Of a stretch of 36,104 nucleotides of DNA, positions 13,301 through 19,226 are shown one piece after another. The stretch comes from Alphaproteobacteria bacterium. GTDB taxonomy: Bacteria; Pseudomonadota; Alphaproteobacteria; Micavibrionales; UBA2020. The DNA lies in contig WGNE01000030.1 in NCBI GenBank assembly GCA_016124645.1, positions 1 to 36,104 of the forward strand, in the 5' to 3' direction. The notes under the pieces were generated by a model, which had not been told where the DNA came from, searched no databases, and was given only the letters and a program-made list of their open reading frames with translations. Made by a program: the position numbers and the translations under genes. The stretch's first letter is position 1. Each line of letters opens with the position of its first letter.

Positions 13301-14062
13301 TCAGCCGTTCAGCCAGAGCATGAAGGCCTTTTGCAGGTAAACGACGCCGATGACGAAGAGGATGCCCTGCGTCGCGTGGTAGAACTGCTTGTCCGAAATG
13401 CGCGCGAGGATGGATTTCGACAGCTTTGTTCCGATCAGCGCCGCGGGGATGAGGGCGGCGAAAAGCCACAGGGGCACGCCGGATGCGGCCTGCGAGAGGC
13501 TGCCCGCGATAAAGCCGAAATAGACGAATTTGGTCAGGTGGGAGGTCGCCGCCATGAAGGCCTTGGTCGCCACCGTCTCATGGCGGGTCAGGCTGTCGGT
13601 CTGGAAGAAAAGCGCCTGCGCGGGCCCGGCCACGCCGCAGGTCAGCTGCAGGCCGGTCACGACCGCGCCGCAGGCGCAGGCATGGGCGGGCTTGGTGATG
13701 TCGAGCTCCAGCTTTTTGGGCAGCAGGTAGGAGATGAACGGCCCGACGCCCAGCAGCACGAAGACGGCAAGCTTGCTGGGCACCAGCGTGATGGCGGCGA
13801 AGACGCAAAAGGTGACGGCGGCCCCCGCGAAGTACCAGAGCAGCCCCTTGCGGTAGATGTGGTGGCGGTGGATCCATGCGCGGCTGGAATTGGCCGAGAG
13901 CTGCGCCACCGCGTGCAGGATCATCGCATGGCTGACGGGCAGCACCCAGACCAGCAGGCCCATCAGCATCACGCCCCCCGCCATGCCGAGGATGCCCGAG
14001 ACGATGGAGGTCGCGAAAACGGTGACGAGGATAAGCAAGGATGTGGCGAGGCTGACGGTCAT
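13301..14062 (-). CDS. TauE/SafE (TSUP) family permease
   Basis: A 253-residue multi-helix permease of the sulfite/organosulfonate exporter family. Visible marks are an N-terminal helix with SIVSGILGMAGGVMLMGLL, several helical stretches, and a second half repeat (GVVTGLQLTCGVAGPAQ-like, here CGAVVTGLQLTCGVAGP). ATG 14062 fits the family length; the open frame extends upstream to 14239 but that part is low-complexity and contains promoter and terminator elements. The ribosome site before 14062 is weak. It has its own promoter (14196-14224) with an intrinsic terminator between promoter and start, so expression may be attenuated. The transported substrate cannot be told from sequence. Confidence 0.87.
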   Translation of the reverse strand: MTVSLATSLLILVTVFATSIVSGILGMAGGVMLMGLLVWVLPVSHAMILHAVAQLSANSSRAWIHRHHIYRKGLLWYFAGAAVTFCVFAAITLVPSKLAVFVLLGVGPFISYLLPKKLELDITKPAHACACGAVVTGLQLTCGVAGPAQALFFQTDSLTRHETVATKAFMAATSHLTKFVYFGFIAGSLSQAASGVPLWLFAALIPAALIGTKLSKSILARISDKQFYHATQGILFVIGVVYLQKAFMLWLNG

Positions 14063-14082
14063 GGCAGACCATATAGCACAGA

Positions 14083-14101
14083 TTGCCGCGCGGGGCGGCA
14101 A
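14083..14101 (-). promoter_or_regulatory. Leader hairpin close to the TauE/SafE start
   Basis: TTGCCGC (14083-14089) and GCGGCAA (14095-14101) form a 7-pair stem with a 5-base loop, 20 bases upstream of ATG 14062. There is no T-run, so it is not a terminator. Its closeness to the start suggests a possible effect on translation. Confidence 0.35.
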
Positions 14102-14126
14102 AATCAAAAAGAGGCGGATTTCGGAT

Positions 14127-14165
14127 AAAAAAAGTCCGGAGAATCTTTTAAGGGATCCTCCGGAC
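14127..14165 (-). terminator. Strong intrinsic terminator in the TauE/SafE leader
   Basis: In leftward RNA a 12-pair stem (14165-14154 with 14145-14134, one G-U pair), an 8-base loop, then seven T (14133-14127). It lies about 25-60 bases after the expected start of transcription from the 14196-14224 promoter and 65 bases before the permease start. It may act as an attenuator, end a very short RNA, or serve the bufferin operon that ends 350 bases upstream. Confidence 0.75.
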
Positions 14166-14195
14166 AAACGGCGGTAATAGAGGGTGTGTAAGACA

Positions 14196-14224
14196 GTTAT
14201 AAGAAAATCCGAGTCCGCTTTCAA
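14196..14224 (-). promoter_or_regulatory. Sigma70-type promoter upstream of the TauE/SafE gene
   Basis: Minus strand TTGAAA (14224-14219), 17-base spacer, TATAAC (14201-14196). The predicted start is near 14189, giving a leader of about 127 bases to ATG 14062 that contains the terminator at 14127-14165. Confidence 0.6.
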
Positions 14225-14515
14225 GAAAAAAATGCACAAACCTTAAAAAAAAGTGAAGGTTTTTGAAATCTTTATATATTTCAGGAGAGAAACCCGAAAC
14301 TATCTTCCAAATACGTGGGTTATGAGAATAATTCTCATTATTGTATAGATGCGGTCTTAACGGTGAATTTTAACGCTGTAAGGTCGGCAAAGCCCCGCTG
14401 CGGCGGGCATTTTACGGATTTGCGCAATGCAGCATTTTCAATGATTTGCGCGCTCCGGCGAAAAAACGACGGATTTTGTGCGCGGCGCGGTTCCGGGAAC
14501 GATTCCCCGGAAGAA
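14225..14515. other. AT-rich gene-free stretch
   Basis: About 290 bases with no supportable gene. Besides the Fur-like palindrome it holds A/T runs (14226-14260), an imperfect GC hairpin near 14389-14412, and a 7-pair hairpin TTCCGGG/CCCGGAA (14491-14497, 14506-14512) right after the stop of the leftward operon. That last hairpin lacks a T-run, so it is a poor terminator. An sRNA could be hidden here but I see no complete promoter plus terminator for one. Confidence 0.4.
14322..14338. promoter_or_regulatory. Fur-like 8-1-8 palindrome
   Basis: ATGAGAAT-A-ATTCTCAT is a perfect palindrome around one central base and resembles the Fur/Fur-like box form TGATAAT-N-ATTATCA. It lies in a gene-free AT-rich stretch, about 100 bases upstream of the TauE/SafE promoter and 180 bases beyond the end of the bufferin operon. 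Which transcript it controls is not apparent. Confidence 0.45.
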
Positions 14516-15235
14516 TCACGCGCCGCCTTCGGGCAGGACGATGGGGGTGGAAAGCTTTTTCTGCATCGCCTCGACCAGCGGCTTTTCCGCGTCGCCCAGC
14601 GCGCGGCGCGACAGGGTCAGGTCGCGCTTCGGTTCCTGCAGGGTGAAGACGATGTTTTTGCGCTCGATGCGGCAGGACGCCACCTGCTTCAGCGGCAGGC
14701 GCAGGAAGGGCTTGTTGTAAAGCCGCAGCAGCGCGCGCGCCGCGCCGTCCGTCAGGGATACGGCGGCGTAAAGCTCGTCCCCGCGCAGGAAGATTTCGGG
14801 CCCGCTCTTGTCGCGGCCCTGCACCCTGTCATAAAGACGGCTTTCGCGCAGGGTGGAAAACAGCGCGTGCCACGTCAGGCCGCAGACAGCCATGGAAAGA
14901 AGCCAAGTGGCAAGCATGAGGGCATAGCTGTAATCCCCGGGCGCGAGCTGCACGGCGTGCGCGGTCGGCAGCAGCAGGCTGAAGCCGCCCACGCAGACGA
15001 AAGAGACGGCGGTCGCGAGCAGGAAGTGCAAAAAGAACTGCCCCACGTAATGCGCGCTGTAGGGCAGCTTGCGGGAAAAATCATCCTTGCCGCCCGCGTC
15101 GGCCGCGGCATAGCCGGCCAGCGGCTTCAGGACGCGGCGCGCGTGCCGGTTTTTGAAAACCGCCAGCAAAATGGCGGCGATGAAGGCGATGCCGGCGAAG
15201 ACGGCGAGGAACAGGGGATTGTCGATGGGCGTCAT
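14516..15235 (-). CDS. Unrecognised membrane protein at the end of the bufferin operon
   Basis: A 239-residue protein I do not recognise. An N-terminal membrane helix (about 8-28) is followed by a basic soluble segment, two further helices (about 67-92 and 104-125), then a soluble C-terminal half of about 110 residues. The tail has a pleckstrin-like beta pattern with repeated basic/hydrophobic strands (IFLRGDELYAAVSLT; RIERKNIVFTLQEP). The start ATG 15235 is 2 bases after the BufC stop, so it is translated as the last gene of that operon. Position suggests a part in bufferin maturation, copper handling or membrane anchoring; nothing in the sequence itself proves it. It has one Cys at about residue 81, one at 117 and one at 192. 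Confidence 0.75.
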   Translation of the reverse strand: MTPIDNPLFLAVFAGIAFIAAILLAVFKNRHARRVLKPLAGYAAADAGGKDDFSRKLPYSAHYVGQFFLHFLLATAVSFVCVGGFSLLLPTAHAVQLAPGDYSYALMLATWLLSMAVCGLTWHALFSTLRESRLYDRVQGRDKSGPEIFLRGDELYAAVSLTDGAARALLRLYNKPFLRLPLKQVASCRIERKNIVFTLQEPKRDLTLSRRALGDAEKPLVEAMQKKLSTPIVLPEGGA

Positions 15236-15237
15236 GA

Positions 15238-15981
15238 TTACTCCTTGACCAGAAGCTCTTGTTGAATAAGGGCGGCCAGCAGCCTGTCGAGCGACAGCTC
15301 CGGCTCGGCGGCCATCGCCGCTTCGGCGGCGAAGGCGAAAGAGGCGTCGATGGTTTGCAGGTGTTCCATGAAGCGGTAGCCGCCGATGGTGACGGACCAG
15401 ACGGCGATGCGCTGCCCGTCGCGGAACAGGGCGCAGCAGGTGTCGCGCGCTTCCATCGTGAAATCCTTCAGCGCGTCGCCCTGTTCGCCGATGGCGCTCC
15501 AGAGCGTATCGACCGGCCAGGCGGACTGCAATATCTGCACATGGGGCTGCAGGCGCAGGCGCATGTTGACGGGGTCTTTCACGGCGGCGAGGTCTTGCGC
15601 CGTCATCGCGGGCAGGCGGGGGGAAAGATAGCTTTCATGCGCCAGCCATTCCAGCCGCGCCGTGTCGGGCACATAGGGGTATTGGTTGAGCGCGGGCAGA
15701 TGCGCGAGAAAATCGGCGAAGCGCGCGCCATAGCCGTTCATGTCGCCGCTTTCGGGCGGCAGGTGGGCGATGAAGGCCTGCGCCGCGTGGTTCATGAACC
15801 CTTCGCCCAGCAGCTTGGTCGTGACGGGGAAAACGTCTTTCAGCAAATCGCGCAGGATGAAGGCGGTGTTGTTCTTGTATATCTGCAGCCGTTCCTTCCG
15901 CTTCAGCGGCAGGGCGCCCGCATCCCCGTCCTGCAGGATGCAGCGGATGAGGTCTTGCTGCAGCTTATGCAACGCGGGCAT
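15238..15981 (-). CDS. bufC: DUF2063 (HvfC/BufC) partner protein of the bufferin-modifying enzyme
   Basis: A 247-residue cytosolic protein of the DUF2063 family (formerly called putative DNA-binding), which partners DUF692 oxidases and presents the precursor peptide. The N-terminal helical domain is recognisable (LQQDLIRCIL; YKNNTAFILRDLLKDVFPV; MNGYGARFADFL). The C-terminal half is a recognition-type domain ending near LLAALIQQELL. I chose ATG 15981 because it removes 14 unlikely residues; it overlaps the end of the DUF692 gene by 17 bases, which indicates translational coupling. It is preceded in the operon by bufB and followed at 2 bases by a membrane protein. Confidence 0.85.
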   Translation of the reverse strand: MPALHKLQQDLIRCILQDGDAGALPLKRKERLQIYKNNTAFILRDLLKDVFPVTTKLLGEGFMNHAAQAFIAHLPPESGDMNGYGARFADFLAHLPALNQYPYVPDTARLEWLAHESYLSPRLPAMTAQDLAAVKDPVNMRLRLQPHVQILQSAWPVDTLWSAIGEQGDALKDFTMEARDTCCALFRDGQRIAVWSVTIGGYRFMEHLQTIDASFAFAAEAAMAAEPELSLDRLLAALIQQELLVKE

Positions 15982-16885
15982 TTTTCGTTCCCTTGTCTTT
16001 TCGCAGCGCGGCGCGGTATTCATCCGCCTTTTGCGCTTCTTCCAGCAGGCGGGAGAGGACGGGCAGATCGCTGTCCCATTCGATGAGCGTCGGGATATCG
16101 CCGAAGCGCGCGAGCGCGGCTTCGTACAAATCCCACACCGGGTCGTAAACCGGGTTGTTGTGCGCGTCGATGAAGACGTCGTCGCCCGCCACCTCGTTGA
16201 CGTGATAGCCCGCGAGGTGGATTTCGCCGACGATGCCTTGCGGTATCGCGTCCAGATAGGCCTTGGCGTCGAAGCCGAGGTTGTGCGCGCTCACGTATAT
16301 GTTGTTGACGTCGAGCAGCAGGCCGCAGCCGGTGCGCTCGATGATCCGCGCGATCATCTCCGGCTCGTTCATCTCCATGCCCTCAAATTCCATGTAGGAG
16401 GACGGGTTCTCGACGAGGATGGCGCGGCCCAGCGTTTCCTGCACATGCTCGATGTTGCGGCAGATGGCGGCAAGCGCCTCCTGCGTCATCGGCAGGGGAA
16501 GAAGATCCGGCACGGCCACGCCCGCCGCGCGGCTCCAGGAGACATGCTCCGACATCAGGACGGGCTGGACGATATCGGCCAGCGCTTTCAGCTTTTGCAG
16601 GTGCGCGTCATCGACGCCCTCCGCCGCGCCCAGCGACAGGCCGACGCCGTGCAGGCTGACGGGGTAATCTTCGCGGCAGGCCATCAGCTGCTCGAAAGGC
16701 ACGCCGCCGATGCAGAAATAATTCTCGCTATGCGCTTCCAGAAATCCCGCTTCGGGCTTTCCGGCGATGATCTGCGCTGCATGGGGCGCGCGCAGCCCGA
16801 TGCCGGTCCGGCCCGAAGACAGCGCGGCGTCCGGCCCCGAAAAAAGGGCGAAGGGCTTTTCCGCTTTCTTGTCCTGCGTGTTCAT
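15965..16885 (-). CDS. bufB: DUF692 multinuclear iron enzyme (BufB-type peptide oxidase)
   Basis: A 306-residue TIM-barrel enzyme of the DUF692/MbnB family. These enzymes use a two- or three-iron centre to modify Cys residues of a small peptide, in bufferins to thiooxazoles. Family metal ligands are visible: the SLHGVGLSLG His, the SEH motif of MSEHVSWS, ENPSSYM, LLDVNNIYVSAHN, EIHLAGYH, VFIDAHNN and the late LIEWDSD Glu. Its start overlaps the DoxX gene stop (16882-16885, ATGA type) and its end overlaps bufC, so the three are coupled. The expected substrate is the Cys-containing peptide encoded at 17559-17858. The family assignment is firm; the exact chemistry is inferred. Confidence 0.92.
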   Translation of the reverse strand: MNTQDKKAEKPFALFSGPDAALSSGRTGIGLRAPHAAQIIAGKPEAGFLEAHSENYFCIGGVPFEQLMACREDYPVSLHGVGLSLGAAEGVDDAHLQKLKALADIVQPVLMSEHVSWSRAAGVAVPDLLPLPMTQEALAAICRNIEHVQETLGRAILVENPSSYMEFEGMEMNEPEMIARIIERTGCGLLLDVNNIYVSAHNLGFDAKAYLDAIPQGIVGEIHLAGYHVNEVAGDDVFIDAHNNPVYDPVWDLYEAALARFGDIPTLIEWDSDLPVLSRLLEEAQKADEYRAALRKDKGTKNARVA

Positions 16886-17460
16886 GCGGGGGTTTCCGTG
16901 ACGGGTTGCGTGTTGGTATCCTGTTCCAGTTTAACACAAAAACCCGTTTTCATCAGCTTTTTGCGCAGGATATGGTCGAGGGAGAAAAAGCCGGGGCCGC
17001 GCGCCATGACCAGCGCCATCAGCAGCATCCAGTAATAATTCTCGTCCGTGCCGGGATAGACGAAAAGCTCGATGGCGAGGGCCATCATGAAAATGCCGAA
17101 GGCGGCGATGCGCCCGCCGAGGCCCAGCGCGAGCAGGACGGCCAGCCCGATTTCCGCATAGCTGACGCCGAAGCCGCCCAGCGCCGCGCCCGGCACGGGG
17201 AAGGAGATGTCGAAGCCGAAGACGTGCTTGACGTGATGCGCCTCCCATTCCGGTTGGAAGAGGGTGGTGAAGGTCTCCTTCGCGTGGTCGAACCCCTCTG
17301 CCAGCTTGTCGCGCCCGGAAACCCAGAAGATGCGCGCCACGTAAAGCCGCGCGGCCAGCAGGGCGAGGGGCGAGAGGTATTTTTCGCAAAGCCCGATCTT
17401 GAAGGCGGCGAGGCGCATGATTTTTTCCGTGATCGGCATCTTGGCGGCGGCATCGGTCAT
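16882..17460 (-). CDS. DoxX-family membrane protein of the bufferin operon
   Basis: A 192-residue DoxX family inner-membrane protein with about four helices (for example LAALLAARLYVARIFWVSG; YAEIGLAVLLALGLGGRIAAFGIFMMALAI; YYWMLLMALVMARGPGFFSLD). DoxX proteins often accompany DUF692/DUF2063 pairs (called HvfX or BufD). The role is unclear, perhaps redox or membrane coupling. The first ATG at 17460 gives about 35 residues before the helices. It ends in a 4-base overlap with bufB. A strong terminator separates it from bufA upstream, so its mRNA level is probably below that of bufA. Confidence 0.87.
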   Translation of the reverse strand: MTDAAAKMPITEKIMRLAAFKIGLCEKYLSPLALLAARLYVARIFWVSGRDKLAEGFDHAKETFTTLFQPEWEAHHVKHVFGFDISFPVPGAALGGFGVSYAEIGLAVLLALGLGGRIAAFGIFMMALAIELFVYPGTDENYYWMLLMALVMARGPGFFSLDHILRKKLMKTGFCVKLEQDTNTQPVTETPA

Positions 17461-17496
17461 GGCGTGTTCCTTATTGTCGCGGGATTGTCGCGGATT

Positions 17497-17539
17497 GAAA
17501 AAAACCGCCGGTCCCTGCGTTGACGGAGACCGGCGGTTT
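17497..17539 (-). terminator. Strong intrinsic terminator between bufA and the DoxX gene
   Basis: In leftward RNA a 12-pair perfect stem (17539-17528 with 17513-17502; GACCGGCGGTTT and its complement), 14-base loop, then a T-run (17504-17498). It lies 20 bases after the bufA stop and 37 bases before the DoxX start. Partial read-through would give much peptide precursor mRNA and little enzyme mRNA. Confidence 0.85.
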
Positions 17540-17558
17540 CGCGTGAAGTGAACCGGTC

Positions 17559-17858
17559 TTATTTGTCCATTTTCATGTCGTCTTTCATCATGCCGCCCTT
17601 CATCATTTCGCCGGGCGGGGTGGTGGAACCGCCGGCCAGCTTGTCGCAGAGCCCGGCGGGCACGAGGACGAATTCGCCGCCGCCGTCCGTCTTGGCATGG
17701 CCGGCGCAGGCATGGGCCGCGGTTTTACAGTCGTTGTGGCCGGCCTTGACGACGCCGTAGCATTTTTCCTGCGAGGAGGCGGCCTGCGCGGCGGGAGCGA
17801 GGGACAGGGCGACGACGGCGGCCAGGGCGGCGGCGGAGAGGATTTTCGTGGTTTTCAT
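17559..17858 (-). CDS. bufA: Bufferin-type copper-binding peptide precursor (DUF2282) with Met-rich tail
   Basis: A 99-residue precursor exported by Sec: signal peptide residues 1-27 (ending APAAQA), then the DUF2282 core with four Cys (33, 44, 51, 71) in the family pattern EKCYGVVKAGHNDCKT...CAGHAKTD...LC. In bufferins the central Cys are converted to thiooxazoles by BufB/BufC and the product binds copper in the periplasm. After the last Cys the protein runs on for 28 residues with six Met (85, 86, 90, 91, 95, 97), which is unusual and suits Cu(I) binding. ATG 17858 is preceded by AGGAAACC; a longer frame to 17906 would add 16 residues before the signal peptide and is unlikely. Confidence 0.88.
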   Translation of the reverse strand: MKTTKILSAAALAAVVALSLAPAAQAASSQEKCYGVVKAGHNDCKTAAHACAGHAKTDGGGEFVLVPAGLCDKLAGGSTTPPGEMMKGGMMKDDMKMDK

Positions 17859-17979
17859 GATGGTTTCCTTTTTTGAATGAATGCATTGTCGGGGTTGTCG
17901 TGACATACGGGCGTCGCCGCCCGCATGACAGGTTATTCGGCCCGGCCCGCAAAAGGTTTCAGGGGGAAAGGTATTTTTT

Positions 17980-18633
17980 CTAGATTTTGGCGAGGCGCGT
18001 CTTTAACAGAAAGCGGCCGAGGGCGATGCCCGCCAGCGCGGCCACGGCCACGGGCAGGAAGTGCCAGACCAGCAAATGCTCCGGCGCGTCGTTGGGGCAG
18101 AAGACACGCATCCCCGTCGCGGAGAAGGAGGCGATGGAGAGCAGCGCGGCATAGCCCGCCCAGCCGCGCCAGACGGGCGCGCCCTTCGTCATCATGCGGA
18201 TGACGACGGCCAGCGGCAGGGTCATCATGGCGGAAAAGCCGATGACGCAGGCATCCCCGTGGTCGGGCGGGGCGAGGCCGATCTTCATGACCTGCCCGAA
18301 AGTATCGGAGAGAATGAACAGCCAGATGGCCGAGGCCGCGCCCAGCATCACGCGTTCGGGCGCGCGCACCTTCGTGTCCGGCACGCAAAGGCGGATGGTG
18401 GCGATGGAGGCCAGCAGCCCCGCAAGGAACATCGAGACGGTCTGGGCAAGATAGAAGGGGCTGCGCAGCGCGCGCATCAGGTCGGGGCGCGGGCCGTGCA
18501 GCGCGTAGATGACGGCCATGACGAAAATGATGCAGACAAGGCAGAGCCCCAGCGCCCTGCGGCCCGCCGGCGCAAGGGGCTTGACGGGGGCCAGCTCGTC
18601 CCCCAGCTTGTCGATCAGCTCACGAGTATCCAT
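17980..18633 (-). CDS. nrsF: NrsF-type membrane anti-sigma factor (DUF1109)
   Basis: A 217-residue inner-membrane protein with about six helices that holds the ECF sigma factor inactive until metal or redox stress. A short cytosolic N-terminus (MDTRELIDKLGDELAPV) precedes the first helix (about 28-45). Cys129 (DACVIGF) and Cys179 (RVFCPND) match the positions of the two conserved sensor Cys reported for Caulobacter NrsF; Cys83 is extra. The gene starts 14 bases inside the sigma factor gene, so the two are co-translated. It is 121 bases upstream of bufA in the same direction, consistent with control of the bufferin genes by this pair. Confidence 0.9.
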   Translation of the reverse strand: MDTRELIDKLGDELAPVKPLAPAGRRALGLCLVCIIFVMAVIYALHGPRPDLMRALRSPFYLAQTVSMFLAGLLASIATIRLCVPDTKVRAPERVMLGAASAIWLFILSDTFGQVMKIGLAPPDHGDACVIGFSAMMTLPLAVVIRMMTKGAPVWRGWAGYAALLSIASFSATGMRVFCPNDAPEHLLVWHFLPVAVAALAGIALGRFLLKTRLAKI

Positions 18634-19198
18634 AGGATATCAGCCATTCCCTCATTTTCTTGTAGGCGCGGTGCGCGGCGACCTTGGTCGCGGTTTCGCT
18701 CATCCCCAGCTTCTTTCCGGCCTCGGCCATCGAATATCCCTCGACCTTGGTCAGCAGCAGCACCTGCCGCTGCTTGTCCGGCAGATGCGTCAGGGCTTGC
18801 CGGATGTCCTTGCCTGACAAGGCTTCTTCAGGGTTATTCGCATCGTCGGCCAGAAAAGTTTCAAGCTCGGCGTCATTAATTTCATTGTCCCGCTGGCGGC
18901 CCTGCTTGCGCAGGTAATCGACCATCTTGTGCCTTGCGATGCCGTACATCCAGTTGCGGAAGGGCTGTTCGGGCCGGTAGGTGTGGCGGGCGGCGTGGAT
19001 GGCCAGCAATATCTCCTGCACCACGTCCTCGATATGATCGCGGAAAAAGAACCTTGTGCGCAGGAAAGAGGTGAGCGCGGGCGCGATCTCCCCCAGCAGC
19101 TTTTTATAGGCGACGGCATCCCCCGCCTGCGCCGCGCGCATCAGCGTTGACCAAGGGTCCTCGGGGGCGGATTTTGTGTGAATATCAGCGGATGCCAT
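18620..19198 (-). CDS. sigF: ECF sigma factor (SigF-like) paired with NrsF
   Basis: A 192-residue sigma70-family ECF factor. Region 2 is visible (FFRDHIEDVVQEILLAIH; RPEQPFRNWMYGIARHKMVDYLR) and region 4 has the helix-turn-helix (LPDKQRQVLLLTKVEGYSMAEAGKKLGMSETATK). ATG 19198 is used; an in-frame TTG three codons upstream (19207) is possible and no ribosome site decides it. It overlaps nrsF. By analogy with Caulobacter SigF, it should switch on the bufferin operon downstream when NrsF releases it. I could not identify an ECF promoter with confidence upstream of either sigF or bufA. Confidence 0.9.
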   Translation of the reverse strand: MASADIHTKSAPEDPWSTLMRAAQAGDAVAYKKLLGEIAPALTSFLRTRFFFRDHIEDVVQEILLAIHAARHTYRPEQPFRNWMYGIARHKMVDYLRKQGRQRDNEINDAELETFLADDANNPEEALSGKDIRQALTHLPDKQRQVLLLTKVEGYSMAEAGKKLGMSETATKVAAHRAYKKMREWLISYGYS

Positions 19199-19226
19199 TG
19201 TAATCAAAAGGTTAATTCTGTATGGA
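19198..19226 (+). promoter_or_regulatory. Candidate promoter for acetoacetyl-CoA synthetase
   Basis: TTGTAA (19198-19203), 17-base spacer, TATGGA (19221-19226), about 95 bases before the start at 19321. A 14-base palindrome AAAAACGCGTTTTT (19286-19299) lies in the resulting leader, just before the ribosome site. Confidence 0.35.

Follow-up and report, generated by a model that had tools for sequence, protein, structure and literature searches.

A probable autonomous small-RNA gene recurring across the order Micavibrionales, with candidate target sites at gene starts

Introduction

The intergenic region upstream of a tauE/safE-like permease gene in an alphaproteobacterial genome of the Micavibrionales, which we take to be the GTDB name of an order absent from the NCBI taxonomy, raises the question of whether a promoter that is followed at once by a terminator serves the adjoining gene or produces an RNA in its own right. 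The locus lies in a stretch of 36,104 nucleotides (contig WGNE01000030.1, hereafter the window). A previous, sequence-only reading described a good σ70 promoter, a 12-pair terminator with seven T residues and a second hairpin near the start codon, and proposed either an attenuator or a very short RNA of about 60 bases. When considered together with related genomes, the unit is probably an autonomous small-RNA (sRNA) gene and not a TauE attenuator, and we regard it as likely that its RNA pairs in trans with mRNA leaders and blocks ribosome binding, a reading that draws on sequence comparison throughout.

The minus-strand unit

The promoter and the terminator are both where they had been described, and can be read directly on the minus strand (Table 1). 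Transcription would proceed from this σ70-type promoter, with A14189 as the probable start, to the intrinsic terminator. The predicted fold of the resulting 63-mer has an energy of -21.1 kcal/mol (z = -5.0), which none of 200 shuffled sequences equalled, and leaves the first 24 nt unpaired in the minimum-energy structure. The promoter of the window is not listed by an automated promoter scan, because that scan accepts only -10 elements whose sixth base is T. No Rfam family reaches its gathering score in the window, sub-threshold matches being the only ones at 14060-14516.

Table 1. Features of the locus in window coordinates
Feature	Position	Strand	Basis or remark
tauE/safE-like permease gene	13301..14062	-	Pfam PF01925; downstream neighbour only
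-35 element TTGAAA	14219..14224	-	direct reading
-10 element TATAAC	14196..14201	-	direct reading; 17-nt spacer from -35
Small RNA, 63 nt	14127..14189	-	sequence, fold, conservation in relatives
Unpaired 5' end ACACACCCUCUAUUACCGCCGUUU, 24 nt	14166..14189	-	proposed antisense region; near-invariant in relatives
Terminator stem-loop, 12 pairs, 8-nt loop	14134..14165	-	fold and two-sided pair changes; arms 14165-14154 / 14145-14134
T7 terminator tail	14127..14133	-	direct reading
Second hairpin TTGCCGC/GCGGCAA	14101-14083	-	seen in window

Conservation of promoter, 5' end and stem

Covariation and conservation of the leader in relatives had been named among the points on which the initial proposal should be judged. 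Promoter, 5' end and stem all recur in relatives, and the unit is therefore more than a chance arrangement. Among related loci the -35 consensus is TTGCAA/TTGCAT, and a best-fit search, run without a shuffled control, scored the promoter at 8 of 12 or better in 72 of 78 loci and returned TATAAA (43/78) or TATAAC (13/78) as the -10 sequence. A spacer of 17 nt, to which the search gave a small bonus, was obtained in 64 of the 78, and 6 nt separate the -10 element from the first A in 56 of them.

The transcript itself was compared in alignment A5, which holds 79 distinct sequences in 81 rows, and in which ACACCCUCUA is nearly invariant. The columns ACACCCTCTA show no variation among the 79 distinct sequences except for one gap and two C-to-T changes, and ATTACCGC, which comes next, has few changes; the loop and the inner stem are free to vary, in contrast to the near-invariant 5' end. 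Two-sided changes occur at 11 of the 12 stem pairs, 96.7% of the cells pair and none of 500 shuffles reaches any of five measures of stem support, all figures from an alignment fitted to the model. The GGAGG within the stem, which had been suggested as a possible coupling of translation and folding, is not conserved and reads GGAGA or GGAGC in relatives. Judged from its sequence, the unit appears to have the own promoter and intrinsic terminator that characterize trans-acting base-pairing sRNAs, and alignment and fold together give it a conserved unpaired seed.

Distribution across the order

A covariance model built on the transcript (R2) matches 37 of 55 relatives (E<=0.1). When 142 genomes of the order were searched (E<=0.01), it matched 100, of which 99 are counted, as the match in G467 is not sRNA-like. 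The RNA is represented in 48 of the 54 genera of the order; at the same threshold it was not found by R2 in 43 of the 142 genomes, some of which are nearly complete. In a sample of the class, searched with strict filters and with 13 candidates scored per genome, 4 of 385 genomes match (E<=0.001), all four from the window's order. A pattern scan of named genomes yielded 69 loci, from entries titled Micavibrio or unclassified Alphaproteobacteria together with a few Rhodospirillales, Rhodospirillaceae and Pseudomonadota; part of the sequence is prescribed by this pattern, which biases the 69 loci towards the core, and the matches of the R2 model are less affected. In G466, for instance, the RNA starts at 1,130,449 on the minus strand of contig 1.

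Tandem copies of the sRNA gene were seen in G025, L062 and L091, about 300-380 bp apart and each preceded by promoter-like sequence (L044, 1200-1262 and 1501-1559; L062, 3853-3913 and 4199-4259; L091, 7259-7319 and 7641-7699).

No description of the RNA was found in one open-access literature collection, searched by organism and by core sequence, and the terms “small RNA” and “hfq” do not occur in the main text of PMC3189940. The best reading of these sequences would be that this family of trans-acting sRNAs is new.

The relation to tauE and other neighbours

The position of the unit nevertheless invites another explanation, in which tauE is transcribed from this promoter and the terminator governs the extent of read-through, either as a transcription attenuator or with a 5'-UTR-derived sRNA as product. 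The unit, promoter included, does lie directly before tauE in the window and in nine relatives of its family (L003-L009, L011 and L012), with a gap of about 25-90 nt between terminator and gene, the shortest of which leaves scant space for another promoter; at a further locus, L010 in G008, a contig edge has left only the terminator end. Against this, the unit occurs order-wide without an adjoining tauE, four family relatives (L013-L016) carry tauE without the unit, and G013 has kept the RNA although no TauE match was found there. TauE was matched in 25 of the 55 relatives, and among the genomes examined the unit stands before it only in the window's own family, so that the conserved linkage expected of an attenuator was not found beyond that family. 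The second hairpin, which would be part of such a layout, is present in the window and has no equivalent in the folds of nine family relatives; where an alternative antiterminator fold was looked for, non-exhaustively, the lowest-energy structure of the window's 63-mer kept its 5' end free and the downstream sequences shared no fold. Attenuation of tauE is quite unlikely as an account of the unit, and of the two proposals made initially it is the short RNA, found order-wide and away from tauE, that the comparison favours.

At 78 sRNA positions, with tandem loci counted twice, the largest groups of neighbours are NDUS4 (32), NrsF (24), rhodanese (23), DUF192-like (23) and ECF sigma (20), four of the five groups being assigned by Pfam and the DUF192-like group by eye. 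The rhodanese gene lies upstream of the RNA in the same direction, and the other four groups mostly face it. Because the order-wide neighbours are other genes, tauE is best regarded as a family-specific neighbour of the sRNA gene. Read-through into tauE may occur in the window's family, where the gene starts only about 25-90 nt past the terminator.

Upstream of the RNA, an operon-like run on the minus strand (14516-19207) encodes an ECF sigma factor, NrsF, DUF2282, DoxX, an MbnB/TglH/ChrH-type enzyme, DUF2063 and a protein of 239 aa for which Pfam gives no match; the run resembles an operon for a bufferin-type metal-binding peptide.

Candidate target sites at gene starts

If the RNA acts in trans, it would do so through its 24-nt unpaired antisense 5' end, to which some pairs add the stem's 5' strand (GUUUGUCCGG). 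The putative partners are mRNA leaders that read GGACAAACGGCGGUAAUAGAGGGUGUG(N)AUG, the Shine-Dalgarno sequence AGAGGG being part of most of them, and pairing at this place would keep ribosomes from binding. Complementarity near the ribosome-binding site of mRNAs encoded elsewhere is clear in several relatives; searches of the genome to which the window belongs yielded none.

The candidate sites emerged as weak secondary matches to the whole R2 model, 15 in number: nine from the 55 relatives and six further ones from the 142 genomes of the order. The search of the 55 relatives gave 12 rows other than the sRNA, three of which match the stem part alone, in addition to the stem palindromes of the sRNA itself. 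Twelve of the 15 (8/9 and 4/6, respectively) lie antisense just before an ATG that opens a reading frame of at least 87 aa; as for the exceptions, the match in G459 precedes a short open reading frame only, and those in G004 and G467 do not fit. The sites resemble GGACAAACNGCGGTAATAGAGGGTGTG, and the Shine-Dalgarno sequence lies inside most of them (just after the site in G508). Some are kept between species, such as the MQVNVKQ site in G025, G046, G480 and G482, the last two having come from marginal matches of a further model, R3, and the MSLTN site in G051, G516 and G517. A third case is a giant protein encoded after purH (assigned by Pfam in G048), the site of which is kept in G025 and G048, although the proteins, of 1,433 and 1,450 aa, share only 26% identity over 656 aa.

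Both giant proteins are encoded at the same place after purH (L232, 6973-11322, 1,450+ aa; G025:C5 from 298781, L221 and L222, 1,433 aa), and the parts scanned have no Pfam or NCBIfam match.

For 18 chosen sites the predicted duplexes have energies of -20 to -50 kcal/mol, as opposed to averages of about -11 to -20 for shuffled sequences, the target sites having been chosen by complementarity and R2 itself also favouring a hairpin and a T run. With some targets the predicted duplex continues into the stem's 5' strand, which could explain why this strand varies little.

The targets recognised so far appear to be proteins without a known family. None of 11 distinct candidate target proteins or parts scored above the Pfam cut-off and one was sub-threshold; PHROGs matched none of four, NCBIfam gave one match far below cut-off among six, and a PDB search with one protein returned none.

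The preference of R2 for hairpin and T run bears on another possible origin of the secondary matches, as decayed copies of the sRNA gene that lie antisense in front of other genes and would act, if they act, in cis. A hairpin and a T run do stand on the antisense strand of some matches, but these are the very features that R2 selects for, and inspection by eye shows no TTGCAA-17-TATAAA promoter on the antisense strand such as the sRNA genes have, which makes this origin very improbable.

A binding partner other than mRNA has also to be weighed: the sRNA may bind a protein or the ribosome, its gene-start matches being a by-product of shared ribosome-binding motifs. Such a role would suit a 5' end that contains the anti-Shine-Dalgarno-like CCCUCU and is constant even where genomes lack recognisable targets, the window's own included. 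However, matching extends to the part outside the Shine-Dalgarno complement: over 678 kb of sequence from G025 and G048, selected so as to contain known matches, its two best matches cover 17 and 16 of 18 positions and both fall at gene starts, and the best scores of 30 shuffled probes ranged from 13 to 16, with one probe reaching 16. In a scan of start regions in samples of the same two genomes, which likewise include the known matches, three sites scored above all 200 shuffles per genome. One specific form of ribosome binding, pairing with the 530 loop of 16S rRNA, was tried and rejected, and we hold the whole alternative to be unlikely. The sRNA 5' end is similar to the complement of the E. 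coli 530-loop sequence GCGGUAAUAC..GGAGGGUGC, but the fit fails over the second half in 13 16S loci from the order, and shuffled ends were equal or better in energy at the two loci tested. The 16S gene of the window's genome was not found in its assembly.

Pairing in trans with mRNA leaders, the reading that we prefer, is supported in some lineages only. An 18-nt pattern with up to three mismatches showed no genome-wide excess over the reversed control. Most MQVNVKQ homologues lack the site, long complementarity being found in 2 of the 25 placed. Among the marginal R3 matches, 4 of 20 fetched (from 23 untrained) are clear gene starts, which is about the chance expectation, and three of these four are orthologous to sites that went into R3. 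Run on the genome of the window, R3 finds the RNA and no other site (E<=10); complementarity is not enriched at starts in an 808-kb sample of that genome, and no long target site was found, so that the RNA would there use shorter pairings or other targets. The genes next to the sRNA are not obvious targets either, with no clear excess of complementarity in the 69 loci.

Relation to known small RNAs and possible significance

CUCCU sRNAs of Rhodobacter are sRNAs with CU-rich anti-Shine-Dalgarno motifs, and the RNA described here likewise carries such a motif, CCCUCU, in an unpaired stretch. It differs from them in that the motif lies in the 5' end, where the constant AUUACCGCC follows, and in that the stretch is not a hairpin loop. 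Attenuators and 5'-UTR-derived sRNAs share with the window's family the promoter and terminator directly before a gene, a linkage that is here not seen outside that family. The trans-encoded sRNAs described for Rhizobiales in PMC3927594 resemble the present RNA in their stand-alone gene, intrinsic terminator, conserved unpaired region and pairing at the ribosome-binding site, the last being a proposal in our case, and differ in sequence and order. Compared with alphaproteobacterial trans-encoded sRNAs in general, the present RNA matches no Rfam family above cut-off and its recognised target sites are unusually long.

A bolder and distinctly more doubtful idea is that of a master sRNA of the Micavibrio order, which by unusually long pairing in trans at the ribosome-binding site would silence a shifting repertoire of proteins that belong to no known family, and perhaps switch the predatory cycle. 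Were this true, the shared site would mark the targets, including the proteins of more than 1,400 aa, as one regulon readable from sequence. On the reading that we prefer, genes of unknown function would be grouped by a common control site and not by homology, and an order with obligate bacterial predators would gain a conserved single-gene regulator that is testable in the cultivated ARL-13, with its published RNA-seq.

Sequences upstream of the promoter

A Fur-like palindrome, TGAGAATAATTCTCA, lies at 14323-14337, about 149 bp upstream of the RNA start, and its copy in the window overlaps the end of a promoter-like match. Nine of 11 family loci have a 15-mer at -148 to -154 that agrees with a Fur consensus at a score of 10-12 out of 14, and a score of 10 is reached somewhere in 83 of 500 shuffled copies of the region. 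Between this box and the sRNA promoter, the minus strand carries GTTTCTCTCCTGAAA (14270-14320), an anti-Shine-Dalgarno-like stretch flanked by short complementary arms. Finally, an A/T-rich stretch, CTTCACTTTTTTTTAAG, lies upstream of the -35 element (14240-14275) and is conserved in most loci of the window's family that have the RNA; it may be an UP element or the binding site of a regulator.
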